Part shown: in pieces, positions 19,473 through 31,826 of the stretch
Numbering within the stretch: the first letter of the stretch is position 1
Layout: each line of letters begins with the position of its first letter
Source: Oceanobacillus sojae
Lineage (GTDB): Bacteria; Bacillota; Bacilli; Bacillales; Amphibacillaceae
Assembly: GCF_900162665.1 (NCBI RefSeq)
Contig: NZ_LT727811.1
Span: 314,063 to 378,062, forward strand
DNA length: 64,000 nucleotides
Direction of reading: 5' to 3'
The notes under the pieces: generated by a model
The model's input: the letters and a program-made list of their open reading frames with translations, nothing else
Database searches by the model: none
Told to the model about the DNA's origin: nothing
Position numbers and translations under genes: made by a program

Positions 19473-20462
19473 CTACTCCCTCATACCTTGTATGGTGTCA
19501 TATAACTCTCTTCCATACTTATCAGCTAATTTTTCATTAATATCCTGCACTGCCTCTCTAAATGGCTCTTGATCAACTTCAACAATTTCTACATCTGCAT
19601 CCAACATGGCTTGGACAGCTTCCTCTTCTTCCTGAAAGACCAAATCATTTTGATAATTTCTTGCCTCTTCCGCTGCTTCTAGAACAGCATCTCTTTCGTC
19701 TTCCGTCAGTCCTTCAAATGTTTTATCACTCATTAGGAGCTGAACATAGCCAAATACGTGATCTGTCATCACCAGATAGTCCTGCACTTCCTGGATACGG
19801 GCACTGGCAGTAAATTCTATTGGGTTTTCCTGTGCGTCTATGACACCCGTTTGCAGAGATGAGTAAACTTCACCAAAATTCATTGGAGTCGGACTAGCCC
19901 CCATTGCTTTCCACCCCTCTACGGATGCTTCAATATTAGGCACGCGAATTTTTATTCCCCTTAAATCTTCCGGTTTCTCTACTAATCTATTCGTGGTTAA
20001 TTCTCTGGGACCGCGTAACCAAAACTCCAGACCTCTGACTCCCGTCTCTTCTAACATATCATCCTGCAAACGCTTACCTTCATCACCGTAAACAAACTCT
20101 TCTAAGTGACCTAAATCATGAAATAGATAAGGTAATTCTAAAATAGAATAAGGTTCATAGAAGTTGGACATTACTCCAGCTACTAAAGCAAAATCTACCG
20201 TACCTATCTGCATTCCTTCTACTAAATCACGATCTTCTCCCAAAGTAGAGCTGGGATAAACCTCTACTTTGACAGAACCATCTGTTTTTTCTTCGACCAG
20301 CTCAGCAAATTTCAACGACCCCTTATGCCAAGCATTAGATTCACTTTGAATATGTCCAAGCCGTAATACTTTTGTCTCTTTTTCATCCGCATTTCCCTGA
20401 TTACAAGCAGTCAACAGCAGAGCTGTAATTGATAAGAGTAAAAATACTATTTTTGATTTCAT
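19473..20462 (-). CDS. dctP: TRAP transporter solute-binding lipoprotein (DctP)
   Basis: The roughly 329-residue extracytoplasmic binding protein has a lipoprotein signal, LLLSITALLLTACNQ, with the lipid-anchor Cys in the lipobox. The mature part carries the DctP fold: LRLGHIQSESNAWHKG, PSSTLGEDRDLVEGMQIG, and the carboxylate-binding Arg in the KIRVPNIEASVEGWKAMGASPTPM region. AGGGGGAT precedes the ATG at 20462; the longer frame would extend a signal peptide that is already complete. Ligand identity is inferred from neighbours as a sugar acid. Confidence 0.92.
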   Translation of the reverse strand: MKSKIVFLLLSITALLLTACNQGNADEKETKVLRLGHIQSESNAWHKGSLKFAELVEEKTDGSVKVEVYPSSTLGEDRDLVEGMQIGTVDFALVAGVMSNFYEPYSILELPYLFHDLGHLEEFVYGDEGKRLQDDMLEETGVRGLEFWLRGPRELTTNRLVEKPEDLRGIKIRVPNIEASVEGWKAMGASPTPMNFGEVYSSLQTGVIDAQENPIEFTASARIQEVQDYLVMTDHVFGYVQLLMSDKTFEGLTEDERDAVLEAAEEARNYQNDLVFQEEEEAVQAMLDADVEIVEVDQEPFREAVQDINEKLADKYGRELYDTIQGMRE

Positions 20463-20472
20463 TTTTATCCCC

Positions 20473-21501
20473 CTATTCAAAAGAAACAAGCACTTTCACA
20501 GAGTTATCCAGCTTTTTATCGACCATCTTAAATCCTTCTCCAGCTTGTTCATAATGCAATTTATGAGATATAACTTTAGCAACGTTTAATTCACCTTTTG
20601 TGATAATTTCCAAAGCCTTCTCCGAGTCAGGACGATTGTATGTCATACATCCAACCACTTCTTTTTCATTTTGCTGCAGCTGCTCAATATCCATTTCCTG
20701 TTGACCATGGAACATAGCTACAGTTACTACACGACCGCCTTTTTTTAATAAATTCAGCGCATCATTAACAATCCCCGGAACTCCGGCAGTAATGAAAACT
20801 TTATCAAATGATCCCTTATCCAATGTCTGTTTCGCTTCATTAATCCAATTTTGATTGTCTTTAATATTAATGACACTGGAAGCTCCCATTTCTTTTGCTT
20901 TGTCTAAAGAATAATCAAGCACATCTGTCACAACAACGTCTTCTGCGCCTTTATCTTTAACAGCAATAAGTGTTAAGAGACCAATTGGACCTGCTCCTAA
21001 AATAGCAACTCTGTCTGTTGGCTTCACATCCCCTTTATAAGCAGCGTGCACACCGACCGCCAAGGGCTCCACAAGCACTCCTTCATCATACGTAACAGTA
21101 TCAGGCAAAAGAAGAACCTGAGCTTCCGGTGCAATAAAGTACTCTGCCATAGTTCCCAGCCAGTCTCCCATTCCCGGAGCTAAACGGTTATCTGAATAGT
21201 TAACATTACCCGTCATAATCCCTTCACTTTCCCCTGTACCAATCTGAGGTTCAACAGTAACCCGGTCTCCCACTTTAAAATGAGTTACCTTCTCCCCTAC
21301 TTCAACTACCTCTCCAGCAACTTCATGCCCAATAATAACCGGGGGCTTTCTAAAAGGATGCAAGCCTTTATAGGTGTGAATATCCGAGCCGCAAATCCCT
21401 GCTACCGACACTTTAATCTGAACCTCATCTTCCTTCAACTCTGGTAATGCTGCTTCTTTAACAACTACTTTCTCTGCATCGTCTACAAATACTGCCTTCA
21501 T
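20473..21501 (-). CDS. Zinc-type medium-chain alcohol/polyol dehydrogenase without the structural zinc cysteines
   Basis: The 342-residue MDR oxidoreductase should oxidise a hydroxyl of a sugar or sugar acid with NAD(P). The catalytic zinc ligands are visible: Cys in VAGICGSDIHTYKG, His-Glu in VIIGHEVAGEV, and Glu in LVEPLAVGVHAA. The nucleotide site is AILGAGPIGLLTL. The structural-zinc lobe, usually with four closely spaced cysteines after the VTVEPQI strand, reads GTGESEGIMTGNVNYSDN with no cysteine. In this operon it may replace the LtnD- or PdxA-type dehydrogenases known from other four-carbon acid sugar pathways; that is inference. Confidence 0.88.
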   Translation of the reverse strand: MKAVFVDDAEKVVVKEAALPELKEDEVQIKVSVAGICGSDIHTYKGLHPFRKPPVIIGHEVAGEVVEVGEKVTHFKVGDRVTVEPQIGTGESEGIMTGNVNYSDNRLAPGMGDWLGTMAEYFIAPEAQVLLLPDTVTYDEGVLVEPLAVGVHAAYKGDVKPTDRVAILGAGPIGLLTLIAVKDKGAEDVVVTDVLDYSLDKAKEMGASSVINIKDNQNWINEAKQTLDKGSFDKVFITAGVPGIVNDALNLLKKGGRVVTVAMFHGQQEMDIEQLQQNEKEVVGCMTYNRPDSEKALEIITKGELNVAKVISHKLHYEQAGEGFKMVDKKLDNSVKVLVSFE

Positions 21502-21528
21502 GATTCTCTCTCCCTATTCCAAACTCAT

Positions 21529-22149
21529 CTATTGGAAATAAATCATTTTTGAATCTATCAAATGATCTCTCATCAATTCCGAGCTTCGGTTGTCTTTTGC
21601 TTTAAGTGCTTCCAGGATTTCTATATGTTCCTGGTAGAACTTCCTTACTCTTCCTGGATCTTTCTTTAAATGACGTAACGTAATTCTACGCAAATGGTCT
21701 TGATAGTTTAATAAAATCTTAGTAATCTCTGTATTCCCGGCAAATTCACTAATCGCTAAGTGAAATTCATGATCCAGTGTTGCGAATAAGCTGACATCTT
21801 CTTCTTCTGCCGCTTTCTCCGTAGCATGAACAATCTCTTCTAATTCATTGCATTGTTCTTTTGTTATGCGTTTATAAATCTCATTACAATTAAAAGTTTC
21901 TAAAGCAACCCGCAGATTATAAATATCATTAATTCTTTCAATGGATATATCATTCACAATAATTCCCTGCTTTGAAGAAACGGTTACAAATCCTTCTGAT
22001 TCTAATCGAACCAGTGCATTTTTTATTGGTGTTTTACTCATCCCCAAATCATCTATCAATGTTCTTTCTGATAGAAATCTTCCGGGTTCATAGTTTTCTT
22101 CTAATATTCTTTCTTTGATTTTCTGATAAGCAACATCTTTTAATAACAT
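21529..22149 (-). CDS. GntR-family regulator, FadR/FCD subfamily
   Basis: The roughly 206-residue repressor has an N-terminal winged helix (AYQKIKERILEENYEPGRFLSE, then MSKTPIKNALVRLESEGFV) and an alpha-helical FCD ligand domain with the metal/ligand histidines in LDHEFHLAIS and QEHIEILEAL. ATG at 22149 has AAGGGA twelve bases upstream; ATG at 22161 abuts the ribosome site and is less likely. FCD regulators commonly bind carboxylates and sugar acids. A palindrome at 23533-23548, just downstream of the operon promoter, is the likely operator. Confidence 0.88.
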   Translation of the reverse strand: MLLKDVAYQKIKERILEENYEPGRFLSERTLIDDLGMSKTPIKNALVRLESEGFVTVSSKQGIIVNDISIERINDIYNLRVALETFNCNEIYKRITKEQCNELEEIVHATEKAAEEEDVSLFATLDHEFHLAISEFAGNTEITKILLNYQDHLRRITLRHLKKDPGRVRKFYQEHIEILEALKAKDNRSSELMRDHLIDSKMIYFQ

Positions 22150-22173
22150 AATTACGCTCATTCCCTTAGTTTA

Positions 22174-23511
22174 TTAAGAGCCGGACTGATAGACTTTCTC
22201 AAAGAATTGCGGTCCGCCTAACTGGCCACTCTTCAATGCAATCTCTAGTCCATCAAATTTAGGTCTCTCTGAATATGCTAAACATAAAGGGGCACCCGGC
22301 GCAATAGAATCCAGCACTTCCAGTCCAAAAATATCTAAATTAGATGTGACAAACCCTGAAGTATCGCCCCCAGATATAATTAATCTCTTAATCTCTATCT
22401 GGTCTAAAACCTTCTTGGTCCACTCTCCCAATTTCCTTCCGATATAAATCCCTCTATCTTCCTTAGAAATACCTTCTTCCAGTAAATGCTGTTTTGTTTT
22501 TTCAATTATTGGATCATCTGGCCCTTTAGCTGTATAAATAATTACCTTTTTCTTAAGCTCTATTTTCTTCACTATTTTTTCCAGGAATCCTTCCGCTTTT
22601 TCCTCATCAGTAAATAATTCATAAGGTATTTGTTCTAGATGAAAACCAGCCTCCTCTGCGTTCTCCAGCTGCTGCTTTGTCACTTCAGATACACTGCCGG
22701 AAACAGAGAATATTTTCTCTATCTTGGAGGATACTATGTCTTTTTCTGTTCGAGAACCTGCTTGATTCCTTTTTATTGCATCCCCCAAAGCATATTCAAT
22801 GCCGGAGGACCCTAATAGAAATTGAGTATCTGTTCCCTTCATTTCCCAAAGTACTTGAGATACCTTCTCCATATGAACATCATTTAGCGAATCAAATAAT
22901 ACAATATTATCTTCTTCAGCATGTTTCTCAATAATTTCTGATACATTCTGTTCTTCCAAGTCTAAGACACTGACTTTATCTATCCGCTGCTCTGTCTGTT
23001 TCTGCAAATGCACAGCTAAATCAGCTTCATCCATCGGAGTTACTGGATGCCTGGACATTACAGGGTGTCTGTCCAGGCGATATACTTTATCCTGAAAAGC
23101 TGCAAAATGATTCCCAAATGCTGTATATCTCCCTAACATAGGAGCCGCTACTAGCAAAGGGAAACTGCCTTTATTAAAATAATTCCGGGCAAGATCACCG
23201 GCAAACCCGATACTTCCTACGTCAGGTGAAGAATCAAAGGTAGAACAAACTTTATAATGAACAAAATATGGCTTTATTTTTTGAAAAAAATCATAAACAG
23301 GAACTAATTCTTTTTCCATGCCATTTCTATTTTTCGCGCGGGCAGTTCCCGCTACACCAACACAATCAACATCCTGGAAACGCTCCATCATCTTTTCATT
23401 TGGTATTTTTAAAAATAAAATTGTTTTTAAGCCATATTGATCCAGTGCTTCCATTGCATCTGTTGATCCAGTGAAATCGTCTCCATAAAAACCTAATATC
23501 AATCTTTTCAA
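22174..23511 (-). CDS. otnK: Four-carbon acid sugar kinase (DUF1537, OtnK-like)
   Basis: The roughly 445-residue kinase has the DUF1537 N-terminal domain beginning LILGFYGDDFTGSTDAMEAL, the substrate-side YKVCSTFDSSPDVGSIG, and the C-terminal nucleotide domain with LIISGGDTSGFVTSNLDI and SIAPGAPLCLAYSE. Members phosphorylate 3-oxo-tetronate or D-threonate/erythronate with ATP. The OtnC-type aldolase in the same operon favours OtnK function. AGGAGG stands 8 bases before the TTG at 23511; the GTG at 23520 overlaps the ribosome site. It is the first gene of the operon. Confidence 0.87.
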   Translation of the reverse strand: MKRLILGFYGDDFTGSTDAMEALDQYGLKTILFLKIPNEKMMERFQDVDCVGVAGTARAKNRNGMEKELVPVYDFFQKIKPYFVHYKVCSTFDSSPDVGSIGFAGDLARNYFNKGSFPLLVAAPMLGRYTAFGNHFAAFQDKVYRLDRHPVMSRHPVTPMDEADLAVHLQKQTEQRIDKVSVLDLEEQNVSEIIEKHAEEDNIVLFDSLNDVHMEKVSQVLWEMKGTDTQFLLGSSGIEYALGDAIKRNQAGSRTEKDIVSSKIEKIFSVSGSVSEVTKQQLENAEEAGFHLEQIPYELFTDEEKAEGFLEKIVKKIELKKKVIIYTAKGPDDPIIEKTKQHLLEEGISKEDRGIYIGRKLGEWTKKVLDQIEIKRLIISGGDTSGFVTSNLDIFGLEVLDSIAPGAPLCLAYSERPKFDGLEIALKSGQLGGPQFFEKVYQSGS

Positions 23512-23532
23512 GTATCCCACCTCCTAAAATCT

Positions 23533-23692: not shown

Positions 23693-23720
23693 TTGCATCG
23701 CCCTCTCTCTTTAGTACAAT
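23693..23720 (+). promoter_or_regulatory. Sigma-A promoter for the small membrane peptide and sigma-54 activator
   Basis: TTGCAT (23693-23698) and TACAAT (23715-23720) are 16 bases apart, about 38 bases before the small ORF. The rest of the divergent gap 23600-23692 shows nothing clear. Confidence 0.6.
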
Positions 23721-23757
23721 AACAATAAGACAATGGATAAAAGCGAGGAGACTTGTA

Positions 23758-23829
23758 ATGAAAAGAGGCATTTTGTTTATTTTTGGCTTCTTACTTGGAG
23801 CGTTTATTTATTTTTTGTTTTTGCATTAA
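23758..23829 (+). CDS. Predicted 23-residue single-helix membrane peptide
   Basis: The ORF starts at an ATG placed 8 bases after GAGGAG and encodes MKRGILFIFGFLLGAFIYFL plus FLH, a basic N-terminus and one hydrophobic helix with small-residue packing positions. It ends 25 bases before the activator gene and shares its promoter. No known family is recognised. It may be a true small protein or a leader whose translation affects the activator; the strong ribosome site argues for translation. Confidence 0.5.
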   Translation: MKRGILFIFGFLLGAFIYFLFLH

Positions 23830-23854
23830 TTCATTCTAAAATGATTAGAGAGAA

Positions 23855-25288
23855 GTGATTAGATTGGACGAAGCATTTAAAGTTATTACGGACAGCATCA
23901 ATGAAGGAGTTATCATAGTAAATGCAGACTTCATCTTTACATATGCAAATAAAGCCAGCAATGCGTTTGGCCTTAACTATAAAAGAGTTATTGGAAAATC
24001 TATTTTTGATGTCTTTCCTTATTTAAAAAAAGAAAATAGTACAATGGTTCAAGTTTTAGATACAAAGCAGCCAATTATAGATAGGAGACAAACCTTTTAT
24101 ACTTATCAGGGAGAGCGAAAAACAACCATCACATCTACTTACCCTATTTTAGCAAATGGAAAAGTGACCGGAGTATTTGAATTGTTTCGTGATATTACTA
24201 CTGTCGAGGCATTGAATACTGAATTACATAATCTGCAGGCAGAAAAACAAATAAATCAAAAAACAGCCATAACCCAACATCCCGGCTCTACATTTATTGG
24301 GGAAAGTGATACTATCTATAAAATAAAATCCAATTTATCTATTTATACAGCAAGTTTATCTCCTATTTTTATTTATGGAGAAACAGGTACAGGGAAAGAA
24401 GTACTTGTAAAAACGATTCATAAAAAGATGCAGGGTGATCAAAAATTACCTTTAATCACTCAAAACTGTGCAGCTATTCCTGAAAACCTGCTGGAATCTT
24501 ATTTATTTGGAACCACTAAAGGGAGTTACACTGATGCTGTAGATAGAAAAGGATTATTCGAGCTGGCTAACGAAGGTGTATTGTTTTTAGATGAGATTAA
24601 TTCTCTACCGCTTAATCTGCAAGCAAAACTTTTACGTGTTCTACAAGATCAACGTATCCGAAAAGTTGGAGATACAACAGACTTTGATGTTCAAGTAAAG
24701 CTGATCGTTGCTTCTAACCGAAAACCACAAGAATTGCTTGCTGAAGGGCTTATACGTAAAGACTTCTATTATCGATTGAATGTATTAAATATTGAGCTCC
24801 CGCCGCTACGTGAACGAAAAGAAGATATCCCTCTGCTGGTGGATCAATTTATTCTAAACTTTAATACATTGTTTTCCAAAGAAATAGCCGGCATCACCTC
24901 TAAAGGGCTGGATAGGCTTATAAATTATGATTGGCCTGGCAATATTCGCGAACTTCAAAATGTCATTGAGCGAATCATGAATGCAAAACAGGAGGGAGTA
25001 ATTGAACCAGAAGATATTGAATTTGATACCTTTCTTAACGATGCACATGTCATTCATCAAAGATATTCTCACTACTCCAGGTCTTATATGGGATCAAAAA
25101 TATCACTTAAAGATATTGTACAAGAGACGGAAACAGAACATATCAAGAAAGAATTAGAGCTAACAAGTGGAAATATCTCACAAGCAGCAAGAAATTTAGA
25201 TATTCCTCAACAAACATTAAGTAATAAAGTAAGAAAATATAATTTAGAGCGGTTTGTTCTAGAAGTTAAATTACTCAAAAAAGAGTAA
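23855..25288 (+). CDS. Sigma-54-dependent transcriptional activator (PAS-AAA+-Fis)
   Basis: The 477-residue enhancer-binding protein has a PAS sensor (about 5-118, with EGVIIVNADFIFTYANKA), an AAA+ domain (about 145-380) and a Fis-type HTH (about 435-465, SGNISQAARNLDIPQQTLSN). Walker A is GETGTGKE (175-182) and Walker B VLFLDEIN (242-249). The sigma-54 contact loop, normally GAFTGA, reads GSYTDA at 223-228. The start is GTG at 23855 after AGAGAGAA; a TTG three codons later is an alternative. No receiver domain is present, so it senses a ligand or state through PAS. Its target is almost certainly the operon from 25422, which has a consensus -24/-12 promoter. Confidence 0.92.
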   Translation: MIRLDEAFKVITDSINEGVIIVNADFIFTYANKASNAFGLNYKRVIGKSIFDVFPYLKKENSTMVQVLDTKQPIIDRRQTFYTYQGERKTTITSTYPILANGKVTGVFELFRDITTVEALNTELHNLQAEKQINQKTAITQHPGSTFIGESDTIYKIKSNLSIYTASLSPIFIYGETGTGKEVLVKTIHKKMQGDQKLPLITQNCAAIPENLLESYLFGTTKGSYTDAVDRKGLFELANEGVLFLDEINSLPLNLQAKLLRVLQDQRIRKVGDTTDFDVQVKLIVASNRKPQELLAEGLIRKDFYYRLNVLNIELPPLRERKEDIPLLVDQFILNFNTLFSKEIAGITSKGLDRLINYDWPGNIRELQNVIERIMNAKQEGVIEPEDIEFDTFLNDAHVIHQRYSHYSRSYMGSKISLKDIVQETETEHIKKELELTSGNISQAARNLDIPQQTLSNKVRKYNLERFVLEVKLLKKE

Positions 25289-25335
25289 TCACCCATAATA
25301 CCTGTTTTGTTTTTGGTAATTTTCTTTTATCTCAT

Positions 25336-25365
25336 TTAAAAACCTTGAGAACTCAAGGTTTTTAA
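25336..25365. terminator. Palindrome, probable terminator of the activator gene
   Basis: Perfect 14-base arms around a central AA, with core AACCTTGAG and CTCAAGGTT. It lies 48 bases after the activator stop and is followed by T-rich sequence. It ends only 3 bases before the -24 box, too near for a usual activator site, so terminator is favoured. Confidence 0.6.
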
Positions 25366-25368
25366 TTT

Positions 25369-25383
25369 TGGCACAATTTTTGC
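25369..25383 (+). promoter_or_regulatory. Sigma-54 (-24/-12) promoter
   Basis: TGGCAC, five bases (AATTT), then TTGC is an exact match to the sigma-54 consensus. It lies 39 bases before the first decarboxylase-family start codon and directly after the gene for a sigma-54 activator. No sigma-A -35 box is evident. Confidence 0.9.
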
Positions 25384-25421
25384 TTATATATCTATAAAAG
25401 ATATTAAAGGAGAAATGTCAA

Positions 25422-26159
25422 ATGAACAAATACGAATATACCATTTTACCAGAATATTCACCACTATATCCAAAGCTTCCCTACCGCTATCACGATTACC
25501 AAAAAGTAAGCGTTTACTGTCGAGGTAACAAAGAAGCTTTACAGCGTTTTTTGCCAAAAGAATTTGAGTTAACATCAGATATTTTTGAAGTTTTCATCTT
25601 AAAGAATAATGAAATTGATGGATTAGACAACTATAGTGAAGGAGGTGTTGTTATCCAATGTGCTTACAAAGATAAAAAAGGAGCATGTGTTGCTTTTGAA
25701 TATGTAGATACAGATGATGCACTATGCGCTGGTCGTGAAATCTGGCGATATCCTAAGAAAATGGGTGAAGTTGAGTTTTATGGAGATGCTCAAAAAATCA
25801 GTGGCAGTGTATCAAGAAAGGGGAAAAAGATTATTGATATCACCTTTGAAGCAAATGAAAAAGAATTTGAAGTTCCTATACTCAGTCCCAGACTACAGGT
25901 AAAACGCATGCCGCACCCTGAAGCAGAAGGGACCGATACAAATAGCATTGTTCAAAACGTCTTAAAAGATGCTCAAGTGAAAAAACAGGTATTTGGAAAA
26001 GCTGATTTAAACATTGAAAAATCTGAAAAAGATCCTTTGTATCTGTTAGATATTCAAGAAGTGCTGGGTGCTGTATATTTAGAAGGCGCTTTCACATTGA
26101 CATACGGAAAAGTAATCGACAAAATTCAAGATACAAAGCCAACTAACCAGCTAACGTAA
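25422..26159 (+). CDS. Acetoacetate decarboxylase family protein, paralogue 1
   Basis: The 245-residue protein belongs to the ADC fold. The family core GREIWRYPKKMGEVEF holds adjacent lysines (112-113) at the place of the Schiff-base pair Lys115/Lys116 of clostridial acetoacetate decarboxylase. YSEGGVVIQ places a Glu (E73) like the catalytic glutamate, and VYCRGNKE has a conserved Arg. Decarboxylation of acetoacetate or a related beta-keto acid is the simplest role, but ADC-fold enzymes also catalyse aldol/dehydration reactions. It is the first gene after the sigma-54 promoter, with AAAGGAG before the ATG. Confidence 0.85.
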   Translation: MNKYEYTILPEYSPLYPKLPYRYHDYQKVSVYCRGNKEALQRFLPKEFELTSDIFEVFILKNNEIDGLDNYSEGGVVIQCAYKDKKGACVAFEYVDTDDALCAGREIWRYPKKMGEVEFYGDAQKISGSVSRKGKKIIDITFEANEKEFEVPILSPRLQVKRMPHPEAEGTDTNSIVQNVLKDAQVKKQVFGKADLNIEKSEKDPLYLLDIQEVLGAVYLEGAFTLTYGKVIDKIQDTKPTNQLT

Positions 26160-26200
26160 AATTAATTAAAATTCAAATCATTTTATGGAGGAATATATTT

Positions 26201-26983
26201 ATGAAAAGACCATTTGAAGTTTGGAATGCAGATAATATGCCCGTACAAGCTCCTTTTTTTAAAAGCCCATCTATACCATATTTTTGCAAAGACCTAAGCA
26301 GTATTAATATTTACTGTCGAACCAGTCCAGAAATTATAAAAAAATATTTAGAGCCGACTCCTTTTGAATATGTAAGTAATAACTTTATCGTTAACTTTGG
26401 AGATTATGCTAACGGCACATCAGCTACTTACCATGATTTAGGGATTATTGTTCCCGTTAAATATAAAGATTTAATTGGAGGATATTATCTTTTTGAATAT
26501 GAAGATTTAGCTTCATCTGTAAGTGCCGGGAGGGAGCTGTGGGGCTACCCTAAAAAAACTGCAGATTTTAAAAAAGAAGAAAAAGATGGAAAAACTTCTG
26601 TTTCCGTTTTTAGAGAGGATGCGGAGATTGTTCATTTTGAAGTTGATTTAAACAAAAAACCGAGACAGGAATTACCTGTTGTTCCGCAATATCCGCACAT
26701 TTTACTTTATACGATGCCCCGGCATGATGGTCCCGGTATTTTAACACAGAAAGTTTTAAGCAGAGACAGCAGCCCTGACTTTGTAACAAAGAAAAAAGTT
26801 GAAGGTTATGCAGACATAAAATTATCTGGATATGAGAATTTCCCTATTATTGAACCTTTAGATGAATTAAACCCAGTTGAGGTTTATGGAGCCAGTTATA
26901 CTATTGGAGATTATGCTGCCACACATGAGAATGGCTGGGCAAAGGTTGTTGACGTCATTATCCCGGATAAAGACTTGAAATAA
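26201..26983 (+). CDS. Acetoacetate decarboxylase family protein, paralogue 2
   Basis: The 260-residue ADC-fold protein is clearly diverged from its neighbour. GRELWGYPKKTADF keeps the lysine pair (118-119), and YCRTSPEIIKKYL parallels the conserved Arg region of paralogue 1. The glutamate position reads TYHDLGIIVPV, with Asp79 where paralogue 1 has Glu73. The two may form a hetero-oligomer or act on successive or different keto acids. ATGGAGGA precedes the start, and the gap to paralogue 1 is 41 bases with no terminator. Confidence 0.84.
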   Translation: MKRPFEVWNADNMPVQAPFFKSPSIPYFCKDLSSINIYCRTSPEIIKKYLEPTPFEYVSNNFIVNFGDYANGTSATYHDLGIIVPVKYKDLIGGYYLFEYEDLASSVSAGRELWGYPKKTADFKKEEKDGKTSVSVFREDAEIVHFEVDLNKKPRQELPVVPQYPHILLYTMPRHDGPGILTQKVLSRDSSPDFVTKKKVEGYADIKLSGYENFPIIEPLDELNPVEVYGASYTIGDYAATHENGWAKVVDVIIPDKDLK

Positions 26984-27012
26984 ATAACATAACAAAAATA
27001 GGGGGATTACTG

Positions 27013-27147
27013 ATGAACCAGATACCATTTATTGTGCAAGCTTTATTTATTGGCGGACCCATTTTTTGTATTGTTCTTTATGGAATTAGTATTCATCTAG
27101 TAAAAAAACATCACGAGAAAGAATACAAAGAGGGAGTGGAAGATTAA
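27013..27147 (+). CDS. Small (44-residue) membrane protein, likely symporter accessory subunit
   Basis: The ORF encodes one hydrophobic helix (about 5-30: IVQALFIGGPIFCIVLYGIS) and a charged tail (KKHHEKEYKEGVED). GGGGGAT precedes the ATG. It ends 3 bases before the symporter start. Some SSS-family transporters have a small membrane partner encoded directly upstream, as PanF with YhdT, so an accessory subunit is the best guess. The family is not recognised with certainty. Confidence 0.7.
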   Translation: MNQIPFIVQALFIGGPIFCIVLYGISIHLVKKHHEKEYKEGVED

Positions 27148-27150
27148 AAT

Positions 27151-28617
27151 ATGATAACATCCTCTCTTATTATAGTAGGTGTATTTATCCTTTATCTTTT
27201 GGCGATTTTTTATTTAGGAGTCCTTGCTGGAAAAGGCATGAATGATAATGAAGAAAGTTATTTTTTAGGGAATCGCAGTTTTGGCTTCTATTCTTCAGCA
27301 ATGAGCTCGGCAGCAACTGATACAAGTGGTTGGATTTTTATTGGTGCTGCAGGTTATGCTTATGTTTCTGGAGCAGAATTTATGTGGATGCTGCCAGCTT
27401 ACGCGTTTGGAGGAATTTTAAGCTGGTTAATTGTTGGTCCGGCTTTACGCAGACAAAGCAGTAAACTGGGAGCTAGAGATCTTGCTGACTATTTTGAGAA
27501 AAAGCTTAATGATAAGACACATTTAATAAAAGTTACCGCAACATGTATAATTATATTATTTTTCATTCCCTATCTGGGCTCCCAATTAACAGCAGCAGGT
27601 AAAACAATGAATGTAGTAATGAATATGGATTACAATCTCGCAATGGTTATTACTGCTGTGGTAGTGGTAGCTTACTGTTTTTTTGGCGGCTATCGGGCAG
27701 TAATGTGGACAGATACTTTTCAAGGAACGTTAATGATATTGATATTAGGCGCATTACCAGTATATTTAATTTTTAGTTTAGGCGGTTGGGGAGCTTTTTG
27801 GGGGCAACTATTAGCTATCGATCCTATCTTAGGAACAGCAGCCAGTGGAAAGTCTGGCGCGTTGGCTTTTGGTTTAGTTTTTGGAATGATGGTTATGGGG
27901 CTGGGGACAGTAGGACAGCCGCAAAATCTCCAGAGATACTTTACCACTAAAGATGCTACAGAAACCTTTTATAAAGGAATGTGGGTAAAAGCAGCTTTTA
28001 ATATTATTTCCATGACTGGAGCTTGTCTGCTTGGGTTAGCAGCTCGAATTTATTTACCAAACCTTACCGACTCAGAAAATGCATTTCCGGCATTGGTCTA
28101 TGAATTGATGCCTCCAGTCATAATTGGAATCATCATTGCGGGAATTTTTGCAGCCATTCAATCGACCTATAGCTCGCAACTTTTAGTAGTCGTTCAGAGT
28201 ATAGGTGATGATTTAATGAAAGTCTTCAGCAAAAAACAGCGCAGTTCAAAAGAATCGGTTAATTTATCCAGACTAATCATGATTGGGATGGGGATACTTT
28301 CGCTTGGCTTAGCTTTAATTAATCTTGATACAGTATTCAAACTTATACTATATGCTCAATCCGTAATGGCTGCAGCTTTTGGTCCATTGTTACTTATGTT
28401 GCTATTTTGGCCCTCTAGAGTGAATAAATGGGGATCTTTTTCCGGGATGGTTACAGGTGCTTTTGTTACAAGTGTGTGGTATGCAACAGGTATGAGTGAA
28501 TATGTTTGGGAAATTGTACCGGGATCACTATCTGCAATTCTTGTTCTTCTATTAGTAACAAAGCTTACAAATAAAAAAGAATTAACGTTTACAGAGGAGA
28601 AAAAAGTAAAATCATAA
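27151..28617 (+). CDS. Sodium:solute symporter (PutP-like SSS family)
   Basis: The 488-residue carrier has about 13 helices. The sodium-site region reads SSAATDTSGWIFIGAAGYAY, close to the SDMSGW motif of PutP-type members, and GGYRAVMWTDTFQGTLMIL is the usual middle signature. The late QSTYSSQLLVVVQSIGDDL contains sodium-site serines. PutP-like proteins carry proline or carboxylates. As the last gene of the sigma-54 operon with two ADC-family enzymes it probably imports their keto-acid substrate, which is inference. Confidence 0.9.
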   Translation: MITSSLIIVGVFILYLLAIFYLGVLAGKGMNDNEESYFLGNRSFGFYSSAMSSAATDTSGWIFIGAAGYAYVSGAEFMWMLPAYAFGGILSWLIVGPALRRQSSKLGARDLADYFEKKLNDKTHLIKVTATCIIILFFIPYLGSQLTAAGKTMNVVMNMDYNLAMVITAVVVVAYCFFGGYRAVMWTDTFQGTLMILILGALPVYLIFSLGGWGAFWGQLLAIDPILGTAASGKSGALAFGLVFGMMVMGLGTVGQPQNLQRYFTTKDATETFYKGMWVKAAFNIISMTGACLLGLAARIYLPNLTDSENAFPALVYELMPPVIIGIIIAGIFAAIQSTYSSQLLVVVQSIGDDLMKVFSKKQRSSKESVNLSRLIMIGMGILSLGLALINLDTVFKLILYAQSVMAAAFGPLLLMLLFWPSRVNKWGSFSGMVTGAFVTSVWYATGMSEYVWEIVPGSLSAILVLLLVTKLTNKKELTFTEEKKVKS

Positions 28618-28810: not shown

Positions 28811-29758
28811 TCACTTAATTGCCACTAAAACATCAAACAAATTCTTTTTAAACCGGCCACGGTCCACCGCCTCACATACACGGACATTCGGCTCCTTCTC
28901 CAAGCGGTTATTCACATCCACCAGACTATATCCTCTTGTAAGCTCCCCTTTGGTTTCCACATCTACATAATAATCATGAGATTTCACCATGATTCGTTCA
29001 TCTGCTGCAATAGCTACTAACAGCGTATCCGGATGCGTCGTTCCGTTCAGACGATGCACAGATTTATTAAACTGCATCACGACACGATTAATATCTATAA
29101 AAAATTGTGAGCCTGCTGTCTCCAAATCTGCAATTTCCGCATGGTCGTTGTCATCCATAATAGAATAATCGATACACATGTCCCAGCCGACCATCGTAAT
29201 TGGGATGCCAGAATGGAGTACAAGCTTTGCTGCTTCCGGATCGACATAGAAATTATACTCTGCTGCCGGCGTGATATTCCCTAGTGTATTATTCGTACCG
29301 CCCATGATATAAATATGCGGAATATCCTTGATAATCGATGGGTCCTTTTTGATTGCCATGGCAATATTCGTTAACGGCGCTATCGCTAACAAGCTCACTT
29401 CTCCCGGATACTCTTTGATTTTCTCAATGATAAAATCAACAGCATGTCCTTCTTCCGGGCGCTGTGCTGCTTTTGGAAAATGTGCACCACCCATACCGTC
29501 CTCTCCATGAACATCTTCTACTGTCCGGTGTTTTTCCTGCCCTGTTGCGAGCAGCGGGCGCTCTAATCCTTTATAGACAGGAACTTTTTCTTCCGGGTTA
29601 GCGACTTGAATAGTATAAAGTGCATTTTCCACCTCTTGATCAAAATCTACATTCCCGCCGGTAATCGTGACACCTTCCACTTTAAAATGATGCATCGCCG
29701 TTAAAAGTGCAATAGTATCATCTCCGGCTGTGTCTGTATCAATAATAACTCTTCTCAT
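28811..29758 (-). CDS. Ribonucleoside hydrolase (IunH family)
   Basis: The 315-residue cytosolic enzyme hydrolyses the N-glycosidic bond of nucleosides to give ribose and base. The calcium-binding aspartate cluster is IIDTDTAGDDTIALL near the N-terminus; SLLAIAPLTNIAMAIKKDP, IYIMGGTNNTLGNITPAAEYNFYVDPEAA and a late HPDTLLVAIA Asp complete the site. It starts 1 base after the neighbouring hydrolase gene stops, so both are co-expressed. Exact purine or pyrimidine preference is not readable. Confidence 0.92.
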   Translation of the reverse strand: MRRVIIDTDTAGDDTIALLTAMHHFKVEGVTITGGNVDFDQEVENALYTIQVANPEEKVPVYKGLERPLLATGQEKHRTVEDVHGEDGMGGAHFPKAAQRPEEGHAVDFIIEKIKEYPGEVSLLAIAPLTNIAMAIKKDPSIIKDIPHIYIMGGTNNTLGNITPAAEYNFYVDPEAAKLVLHSGIPITMVGWDMCIDYSIMDDNDHAEIADLETAGSQFFIDINRVVMQFNKSVHRLNGTTHPDTLLVAIAADERIMVKSHDYYVDVETKGELTRGYSLVDVNNRLEKEPNVRVCEAVDRGRFKKNLFDVLVAIK

Positions 29759-29759
29759 T

Positions 29760-30701
29760 TTATTTCTCCTGTCTCGCTAATTCCGTAATGTAATCAAAAA
29801 AAGCATCCCGGTTTACTTCATAAACAAACTGAACAGGACGTCCAGATTCTGATATCTCCGTTTTCCCCTGGCTGGCTCCACCAGGATGAACAATGCTTTT
29901 GACTTCTTTTTTCTTTACCAGATCAGGCTTCCCGATTGTTGCTGTTGTTAAAACGTCCCACAGGAAGTAGGTTGAGTTGGTTTGAAAATGCACAAGCGGC
30001 GGAACCATCGCATAGCATTGCCCAAGGAAATCAATCCCGATATCCCGGCGTTCCGCAGCCCATTTATCTCTGACATCTATGGTTAATGGAACCATATTTG
30101 TGCTTTCTAAAGCAATTAAATCAATTGCAATCGAACTATCCCATACCGTTTTTACAGCCTCCGGATCCCAAAAAGCATTCCATTCTGCGGTTCCATCATG
30201 CTCCGGCTCCTCAACATTTCCATTTTCTAAAAATGTTCCGCCCATCCAGACAAGCTTTTCAATTTTCTCTTCAATATCTGGAGCAATTTCCAAAGCCCTT
30301 GCTAAATCGGTTAATGGGCCGACAAATACAAGCGTCACTTTTTCACTGCTCTCTCGCAGGATGTTCACCAAATGTTGATGTGCAGTTGCTTCTGCAAGCT
30401 TTGCTTCTATCTTTCCAGACTCATTTAATAAAGGTAAGGCATCTACAAAAAATGCATGCATGCGCCAGTCTTTTGGAAATGGATTTTTTCCGCGGGAAGT
30501 AGATGCAGCTACCTCCACATTCTGGCCTTTTCCAAAGCGGTCGATAATTTTACGGCTTGCATAAACAGCAGGCTCCAAATAACAGTCTGCAGGAATAACT
30601 CCGACGCCAGTCAACTCCACATTATCCATCTGTAATAATAAAAACAGCGAGATTAGATCATCTACTCCGCCATCATGATTTAAGTATACCTTCTTCTTCA
30701 T
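29760..30701 (-). CDS. Nucleoside hydrolase family protein with altered Asp motif
   Basis: A 313-residue member of the same superfamily. The N-terminal cluster is VYLNHDGGVDDLISLF, so the first Asp of DxDxxxDD is Asn, while the general-base Asp and the DD pair remain. TLVFVGPLTDLARALEIAP, LVWMGGTFLENGN, EWNAFWDPEAVKTVW and FLWDVLTT supply the rest of the site. AGAGGAG precedes its ATG. It pairs with the following hydrolase in a two-gene operon; a separate nucleoside or ribosylated compound may be its substrate. Confidence 0.88.
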   Translation of the reverse strand: MKKKVYLNHDGGVDDLISLFLLLQMDNVELTGVGVIPADCYLEPAVYASRKIIDRFGKGQNVEVAASTSRGKNPFPKDWRMHAFFVDALPLLNESGKIEAKLAEATAHQHLVNILRESSEKVTLVFVGPLTDLARALEIAPDIEEKIEKLVWMGGTFLENGNVEEPEHDGTAEWNAFWDPEAVKTVWDSSIAIDLIALESTNMVPLTIDVRDKWAAERRDIGIDFLGQCYAMVPPLVHFQTNSTYFLWDVLTTATIGKPDLVKKKEVKSIVHPGGASQGKTEISESGRPVQFVYEVNRDAFFDYITELARQEK

Positions 30702-30827
30702 GAATAAACTCCTCTTTTCTTTTAAAGCTGCCCCACATAAGGCGCTTCTATATTTGCATCTTACTATTGCCTTAGTAAAAGATTATTATATTTCGAACCA
30801 AAAGTCCTCTGCAGACAAATACCTATT

Positions 30828-31826
30828 TTATAACTTTTTATAATTAGAGCTTGTCCGTTCAATTAATACGGGCTCCAGCTTGATATCAACTTTTTCCGTG
30901 GATACTTCATTTTCAATACGGTTGAGAAGCACCTCAAGTGTTGTTTTCACCATATCTTCAATTGGCTGGTGAATACTGGAAATCCCCATAATTTTAGAAA
31001 GGTATGTATCATCAAAGCCAATTAAACTGATGTCTTCAGGTATTCGAATCTTTCTTTCCTGAGCTATCTCCAAAAATTCCAGAGCCACCAGATCATTCCC
31101 GGCAAAAATACATGTGAAGTCAAGCTGCTCTTGCTTCTCTTTTAAGTATGCTTCAATATCCTGCCGGATCAGATAATTGTTTGTAGAAGTCTCTTCCACA
31201 CGGATAAAATTGTTCAAATCAAACTCGAAGCCATTTTCGTACAATACACTTTTATATCCTAAAAATTTATCGTCCAGTGCTGTTCCAATAAATCCAAATT
31301 TTGTATGCCCTGCATGTATAAATTTTTCAGCGGCAATTTTTCCCGCCTGCATATGGTCAAGACCGACGCTATCCAATGATTGATGGTTCTGTGTAATGAT
31401 TACCGTAGGGATACCAAGTTTATTCATTCGTTTTAAGTTGTACTCCCCCGTAGGTATACAAATTACTCCATCCGCCTGACGTGCTATGAAATTCTGAATG
31501 CTCTCCCATTCTGTAATTGGATTATGTTTAGAGTTATGCAGGAGAATACTGTATCCTAGTTTTCTGGCTTCGGATTCTAATACATCAACCAGTTCTACAA
31601 AATAAGGATTATATGTTTCTGTGACACACACACCAATAATTTTGGATTGGCTTCTTTTCAAAGTTTGTGCAGCGCTATTCGGAATATACCCTACATCTTC
31701 AATAACCTTAAGCACCCGTTTTGCTGCATCTTCATTAACTTTTTCATTCCCATTAATAACACGGGAGACAGTAGATTGTGAAACATTTGCCAATTTAGCA
31801 ATTTCTTTCATTGTCAATTTAGCCAT
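30828..31826 (-). CDS. LacI-family repressor of the adjacent sucrose/fructan genes
   Basis: The 332-residue regulator has the LacI helix-turn-helix and hinge (MKEIAKLANVSQSTVSRVINGNEKVNEDAAKRVL) and a periplasmic-binding-like sensor with IGFDDTYLSKIMGISSIHQP. It lacks a PTS-type phospho site. A GAATTCGTATTC site lies 23 bases before its own start and a perfect GAATACGTATTC at 32065 covers the divergent permease promoter region, so it likely represses itself and the permease-GH32 operon until sugar is present. Confidence 0.92.
   Translation of the reverse strand: MAKLTMKEIAKLANVSQSTVSRVINGNEKVNEDAAKRVLKVIEDVGYIPNSAAQTLKRSQSKIIGVCVTETYNPYFVELVDVLESEARKLGYSILLHNSKHNPITEWESIQNFIARQADGVICIPTGEYNLKRMNKLGIPTVIITQNHQSLDSVGLDHMQAGKIAAEKFIHAGHTKFGFIGTALDDKFLGYKSVLYENGFEFDLNNFIRVEETSTNNYLIRQDIEAYLKEKQEQLDFTCIFAGNDLVALEFLEIAQERKIRIPEDISLIGFDDTYLSKIMGISSIHQPIEDMVKTTLEVLLNRIENEVSTEKVDIKLEPVLIERTSSNYKKL

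Follow-up and report, generated by a model that had tools for sequence, protein, structure and literature searches.

Short keto-acid use in Escherichia coli is governed by AtoSC, a sigma-54 activator system in which AtoC is a two-component regulator, and acetoacetate decarboxylase (ADC) employs Arg29, Glu61 and Glu76 in catalysis (Clostridium numbering, as for 3bh2, which we take to be the enzyme of Clostridium acetobutylicum). Here we describe a gene cluster of Oceanobacillus sojae, lying in a 64,000-nucleotide stretch of contig NZ_LT727811.1 (positions 314,063 to 378,062; hereafter the window), in which a PAS-AAA+-Fis sigma-54 activator gene is followed by a -24/-12 promoter, two genes of the ADC-like superfamily (ADC1 and ADC2), a gene for a 44-residue membrane protein and a gene for an SSF-family symporter (Table 1). 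All of these parts had been named in a first-pass annotation of the same DNA and were confirmed; the island itself also stood, with the activator open reading frame beginning at 23855 and not at 23693. We predict, with a probability of roughly 60%, that the cluster is a substrate-induced operon for the uptake and catabolism of a keto-bearing organic acid other than acetoacetate, and in general terms the uptake with keto-acid processing first proposed still describes it best. We would class the cluster as a catabolic operon under a sigma-54 switch, based on two ADC-like superfamily branches that are both uncharacterised.

As with the ato operon, control by a sigma-54 activator is predicted here, but the window activator has a PAS input, scores 253.7 bits against the AtoC model NF008469 (cut-off 714) and is accompanied by no CoA transferase within the unit. 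The symporter belongs to the same SSF family as the sodium/proline symporter PutP, which is still its nearest curated model, so that its initial description as PutP-like was apt to that extent; its 321.8 bits nevertheless lie far under the equivalog cut-off of 515.5 (TIGR02121), and a small membrane protein gene is located 5' of it. The SSF protein of genome G1219 is also under that cut-off, at 405.7 bits (compared genomes are designated by G numbers and individual stretches by L numbers). Authentic acetoacetate decarboxylase has its fold, Pfam family and PKK lysines in common with ADC1 and ADC2, but carries Arg29 and Glu61 where they do not, has Glu76 where ADC2 has Asp, and falls in a separate clade. 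The ADC-like aldolase-dehydratases (4zbt/6eej) and MppR (4jmc) likewise share the fold and, judging from their PDB titles, may offer a parallel in Schiff-base carbonyl chemistry; the sequence match was weak, with a profile of both groups reaching 2.9e-4 against 4zbo and an ADC2-only profile 0.3. In Saccharolobus solfataricus, Sso1221 and Sso1222 resemble the window pair in being two ADC-family genes, there with consecutive locus numbers, that lie beside catabolic dehydrogenases and are strongly induced by carbon source; both respond to phenol, and an aldolase-type role was suggested by the authors (PMC7820114). They differ in belonging to an archaeal phenol cluster, and the likeness drawn here is one of gene description. 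The Sso1221/Sso1222 pair gives some precedent for pairs of ADC-family genes. No published description of such a unit or its enzymes was found in a literature search that was thin in subscription journals.

The case against acetoacetate as the substrate lies in ADC1 and ADC2 themselves, which are identical at 74 of 225 aligned residues (33%). The Schiff-base lysine pair of the PKK motif (K115, K116) is present in both window proteins, as had been stated, and in 21 of 22 ADC1 and ADC2 rows of our alignment. Arg29 and Glu61 were replaced in every one of these 22 rows, ADC1 rows having Tyr or Phe at position 29 and Phe at 61, and Glu76 was retained in 8/8 ADC1 rows and changed to Asp in 14/14 ADC2 rows. 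All three residues are kept by the crystallised proteins named ADC (3bh2, 3bgt and 3c8w) and by three of five other phylum rows, the other two (G626 and G560) having only Glu76 of the three; alignment anchoring is weaker at 29 and 61 than at 76 and the lysines. The third ADC-family protein of a Shinella plasmid (RS29060, L049 10963-11703) has PKH instead of PKK. A maximum-likelihood tree of 30 rows placed ADC1 in a clade of eight rows (support 95/88) and ADC2 in a clade of 14 (100/96), each including one Shinella row and both separate from the three crystallised proteins and three other phylum rows; G626 and G560 form very long branches, the deeper joins are unsure, and the ADC-family phylum rows G869, G604, G643 and G1186 were left out of both residue table and tree. 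On the NCBIfam acetoacetate decarboxylase model, ADC1 scored 103 and ADC2 49 bits, both under the cut-off of 150. For each protein, all 24 Foldseek matches at E <=0.001 were ADC-superfamily chains; the AlphaFold models used came from three-row alignments (mean pLDDT 64.6 and 67.1, with low confidence around the lysines), and no active-site geometry is claimed from them.

Because Arg29 and Glu61 are missing from both proteins and Asp stands for Glu76 in ADC2, plain acetoacetate decarboxylation by either is unlikely, and with both proteins in clades of their own the acetoacetate link drawn in the first-pass annotation was not supported. ADC1 and ADC2 are more likely an imine-forming lyase, hydratase or decarboxylase pair for another keto compound. 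An uptake and decarboxylation unit for acetoacetate or a simple beta-keto acid, whose two enzymes would be ordinary decarboxylases differing slightly in range, would fit the PF06314 membership, the PKK lysines, the Glu76 kept in ADC1 and the precedent of AtoC, a case of sigma-54 control of acetoacetate use (Table 1, PMC3162934), but it is improbable given the replaced residues and the sub-cut-off scores, and CoA transferase, ligase and thiolase are all absent among the genes of the window unit.

The cluster recurs as a linked unit. ADC1 and ADC2 are the sole PF06314 matches in the window genome (genome search), and within its family such matches, mostly weak, occurred in 41 of 159 genomes; ADC1-type genes were found in the window genome, G087, G149 and G151, each with an ADC2-type gene nearby, and G018 had ADC2 alone. 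Samples of the order (397 genomes) and class (398 genomes) added G232, G454 and G1219 with both types and G356, G442 and G461 with ADC2 only, with no score above 85.2 bits among the other 37 genomes matched in the class sample, and a scan of genome contigs added L032 (Alkalihalobacillus), with only ADC2 on the stretch read. The ADC1 profile found no more ADC1 of like score in a phylum sample of 398 genomes (window 473 bits, next genome 97). All seven ADC1-type genes of Bacilli (window, G087, G151, G149, G232, G454 and G1219) lie no more than 1.7 kb from an ADC2-type gene, with gaps of 12 to 1658 bases, and all seven loci hold ADC2, the small membrane protein and the SSF gene in a single cluster, in agreement with the dedicated, linked sigma-54-type unit proposed at first. 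No lone ADC1 was seen in the samples searched from the window's class; unlinking of the pair in relatives had been set beforehand as what would speak against the proposal, and the exception that we found is outside the class, on a plasmid of Shinella zoogloeoides. An SSF gene and a small protein gene accompany 11 of 12 ADC2-type genes, and five of the 12 are without an adjoining ADC1. The order ADC1-small protein-SSF-ADC2 holds in 5/7 loci with both types, the window having ADC1-ADC2-small protein-SSF and G1219 having ADC1-ADC2-SDR-aldehyde dehydrogenase (ALDH)-small protein-SSF-ECH-ligase-SDR. Chance neighbours were ruled out by the presence of ADC2-type units in 12 genomes, and the gene set, being found again in other bacteria, is probably a real nutrient-use pathway. 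A single ADC2 scan of viral contigs gave no match. Plasmid searches returned 34 records for ADC2 (20 listed) and 89 for ADC1 (10 listed), and among the matches listed, those beyond Shinella WSC3-e, WSD5-1 and Teo12 were below 30% identity or at 32-33% over 45% of the query.

That ADC1 is accompanied by ADC2 at 7/7 loci of the window's class, and adjacent to it in the window and G1219, could also be understood if the two were chains of a single hetero-oligomeric enzyme, ADC-family enzymes being homo-oligomers. We consider this unlikely as well, since five of 12 ADC2 units have no adjoining ADC1, a Shinella plasmid stretch has an ADC1-type gene without an ADC2-type gene, and the strong divergence of ADC2 in the window is not matched by ADC1, which would be unusual for tightly packed chains. 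This last point is seen most clearly against G087, with which the window unit shares 81% identity in the activator and 87% in ADC1, but only 37% in ADC2 and 44% in the SSF protein; in the trees, the window branches are long for ADC2 (0.98) and SSF (2.46) and short for ADC1 (0.09). In the order sample, matches to the window SSF protein at E <=1e-135 beyond its own genome were five SSF proteins of ADC2 units and three of one other genus, at 46-48% identity. Since the SSF matches centre on ADC2 units and the ADC2 and SSF branches are both long, the ADC2-small protein-SSF half appears still to be of the unit's kind, either swapped for a remote version or fast-evolved as a block. Most simply, ADC2 and the carrier would have a common substrate, and their joint change in the window suggests an altered substrate range.

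Small accessory proteins accompany other SSF carriers, and the 44-residue protein may be a further case. It had no match in Pfam or NCBIfam, even with E relaxed to 10, and scans with its relatives gave nothing beyond weak, sub-cut-off matches. All 11 SSF-bearing units have, 5' of the SSF gene, a gene for a protein of 34-44 residues with a single hydrophobic stretch, and such a gene also lies 5' of related SSF genes in G128 and G129, where no ADC gene occurs in the stretches read. Since the pairing with this SSF subfamily extends to loci that lack ADC genes, the 44-residue protein is most plausibly a partner of the subfamily. None of the three genomes with such SSF relatives (G127-G129) belongs to the 41 in which PF06314 was matched. 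The SSF context in G128 and G129, with GntR, fumarylacetoacetate-hydrolase-family and apparent nucleoside hydrolase genes, was considered as a pointer to the substrate and gave none.

Wider gene company was found outside the short form of the unit. On a Shinella plasmid (L049), a cluster contains an SDR gene, an ADC1-type gene, aldehyde dehydrogenase, a zinc-dependent alcohol dehydrogenase (Zn-ADH), an AMP ligase, ECH and two regulators, together with an amino-acid-type ABC carrier, the third ADC-family gene, an ADC2-type gene and a ProC gene, and the ADC2 proteins of this cluster and of G1219 share 52% identity, though they belong to different phyla. On the second Shinella plasmid, that of Shinella zoogloeoides, the series SDR-ADC1-ALDH-ADH-ligase-ECH-IclR is kept at 89-92%. 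G1219 and L032 have in common ECH, a two-part CoA ligase, ALDH, SSF, ADC2 and SDR, with seven matching genes at 55-70% identity. The SDR, aldehyde dehydrogenase, CoA-ligase and crotonase genes in G1219 and Shinella suggest a catabolic pathway that crosses phyla. We tentatively propose, at somewhat less than even odds, that ADC1 and ADC2 are two enzyme types of one such pathway, that the sigma-54 short form has spread in Bacilli, and that in the window a joint replacement or shift of carrier and ADC2 took the unit to a different substrate while the switch and ADC1 were kept. A Shinella paper on the degradation of acesulfame through acetoacetate (PMC11500405) was considered as a pointer to the substrate and gave none: the word "decarboxylase" is absent from its main text, and the paper draws no link between acesulfame and this cluster.

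Proline genes also adjoin some of these clusters. The G087 unit abuts PutP (678.7 bits), proline dehydrogenase (Pro_dh) and pyrroline-5-carboxylate (P5C) dehydrogenase (817.2 bits), G1219 has a P5C dehydrogenase (728.6 bits) near its cluster, and ADC2 of Shinella is followed by a ProC gene (228.4 bits), all four scores being above cut-off. In G1219 (L093 786-3934), not far from the ADC genes, an activator 48% identical to that of the window stands beside the P5C dehydrogenase with its own 11/12 -24/-12 site. Together with PutP as nearest curated model of the SSF protein, this company could point to a special case of the predicted operon in which a pyrrolidine or some derivative of proline is the substrate, and a keto derivative of it is handled by the ADC enzymes toward P5C. 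We hold this to be quite unlikely: by sequence starts and a partial gene scan, no such genes were recognised beside the window unit or the other fetched loci of the class, the true PutP adjoining the G087 unit speaks for a different substrate of the carrier within the unit, and catabolic genes also cluster by chance.

The remaining support for a keto-acid operon under substrate control comes from its switch. The -24/-12 site at 25369 (TGGCACAATTTTTGCT) matches 11 of the 12 scored positions of the consensus TGGCACG-N4-TTGCW, so that the promoter described at first as exact is present but near-consensus. It is the sole single-mismatch site among 12 with two or fewer mismatches in the 64 kb, its score was reached by none of 2000 shuffles of its own intergenic stretch, and the window genome has a gene for RpoN (sigma-54). 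Ten of the 12 ADC2-type units have such a site, 46 to 60 bases 5' of ADC1, or ahead of the small protein gene in G356, G442 and G461. Shuffling in nine units reached the score in 0, 3, 0, 24, 0, 0, 0, 2 and 3 of 2000 cases, where the figure of 24 belongs to the longer stretch of G149 and the tenth unit, G1219, was scored but left out of shuffling. An activator gene lies directly upstream in eight of the 12 units, and the window activator has the AAA+ sigma-54 interaction domain, HTH_8 and a signal domain expected of its family. The inverted repeat just 5' of the -24 element, which may be an operator or may terminate transcription of the activator gene, has a similar counterpart (by eye) at equal distance from -24 in G087, G151 and G149; in G149 the repeat is kept though no activator gene adjoins. 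In G151 the activator gene is in two pieces with an IS110-family transposase inserted between them (L034 11609-14670). The transposase is itself in two reading frames, and the ADC1, small protein, SSF and ADC2 frames of that unit are all open despite the split activator.

Several observations weigh against a substrate-induced operon of this kind. The unit is rare and patchy, with ADC2-type matches in 3/15 genomes of G356's family and 1/42 of G1219's order. L032 and G018 have no site of at least 10/12 in the stretches read, G018 has no SSF gene beside ADC2, and G149 has the promoter but no adjoining activator, its best activator match elsewhere being 35% identical. No ADC2-type gene occurs in 24.7 kb of the Shinella zoogloeoides plasmid, despite the ADC1-type gene and its neighbours there. 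The G1219 ligase is matched at just 27-30% in the other ten genomes tested (29% in the window genome), and with no close match in them the CoA-ligase/crotonase set lies outside the other sigma-54 units, so that the product may differ. Finally, of seven aligned activators only those of the window and G087 carry GSYTDA as their sigma-54 contact loop, the other five having GSFTGA or GGFTGA; GSYTDA differs from GAFTGA at three places, and GAFTGA mutants are mostly inactive (PMC7175178). Each single loop change has a working precedent, however, with A2S in LevR, F3Y in TouR and G5D in FlgR (PMC3162934, Fig. 3 legend), and NorR G266D, a Gly-to-Asp change in the loop, is active and constitutive (PMC2941729). 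With these precedents and the promoter retained in both the window and G087, it is very improbable that the activator no longer works with sigma-54 and that the promoter match is a relic, as the altered loop and the inactive mutants might lead one to suppose. Because the same Gly-to-Asp change renders NorR constitutive, the window activator may be leaky.

For the predicted operon we envisage the following course. The PAS domain of the activator would sense the compound or a linked state, and the activator would drive RNA polymerase-sigma-54 at the conserved -24/-12 site before ADC1. The SSF carrier, to judge from its family and company, would import the compound with sodium, aided by its small membrane partner. 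The PKK lysine of ADC2 could then form an imine with the ketone, after which a C-C bond would be made or broken, or water or carbon dioxide removed. ADC1 would act on the ADC2 product or on the substrate in a second form; ADC2 is placed before ADC1 because ADC2 occurs without ADC1 in the window's class, and never the reverse. Products of the window type would enter general metabolism, and in G1219 and Shinella, going by gene company, they may pass to SDR, aldehyde dehydrogenase, CoA ligase and crotonase.

Table 1. Features of the predicted keto-acid operon (positions in the window)
Feature	Position	Strand	Remarks
PAS-AAA+-Fis sigma-54 activator (enhancer-binding protein, EBP)	23855..25288	+	PAS_4 1.6e-13, Sigma54_activat 4.6e-55, HTH_8 3.9e-8; start codon uncertain
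Inverted repeat AAAAACCTTGAG-AA-CTCAAGGTTTTT	25338..25363		just 5' of -24 element
-24/-12 (sigma-54) promoter	25369..25384	+	ADC1 start codon 53 bases downstream
ADC1, ADC-like superfamily, 245 residues	25422..26159	+	PF06314 3.7e-41
ADC2, ADC-like superfamily, 260 residues, diverged within own clade	26201..26983	+	PF06314 3.1e-31
44-residue membrane protein, likely symporter partner	27013..27147	+	single hydrophobic stretch (by eye)
SSF-family symporter, 488 residues, long branch in the unit's SSF subfamily	27151..28617	+	PF00474 5.6e-66, 223.5 bits, cut-off 22.8

On the minus strand at 19473-23520, the neighbouring set consists of sugar-acid genes for a TRAP-type binding protein, a Zn-dehydrogenase, a GntR-type regulator and a kinase whose nearest model, 3-oxo-isoapionate kinase, was matched under its cut-off (433 vs 700 bits). 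On the other side, also on the minus strand (28811-31826), lie a tandem pair of different nucleoside hydrolases and a LacI-type regulator; a gene with a start very similar to that of the second hydrolase is found near the related SSF genes of G128 and G129 (L104, L105).

These results have implications for how the ADC-like superfamily is annotated, as Shinella genes of both clades are labelled "acetoacetate decarboxylase family protein" yet are without the residues tied to that reaction. The small membrane protein is likely an accessory chain for its symporter subfamily. Being compact, conserved and under a switch, and having a single carrier and two enzymes, the unit provides a good handle on the true substrate, and the clusters of Shinella, G1219 and L032 may show the remainder of the pathway.

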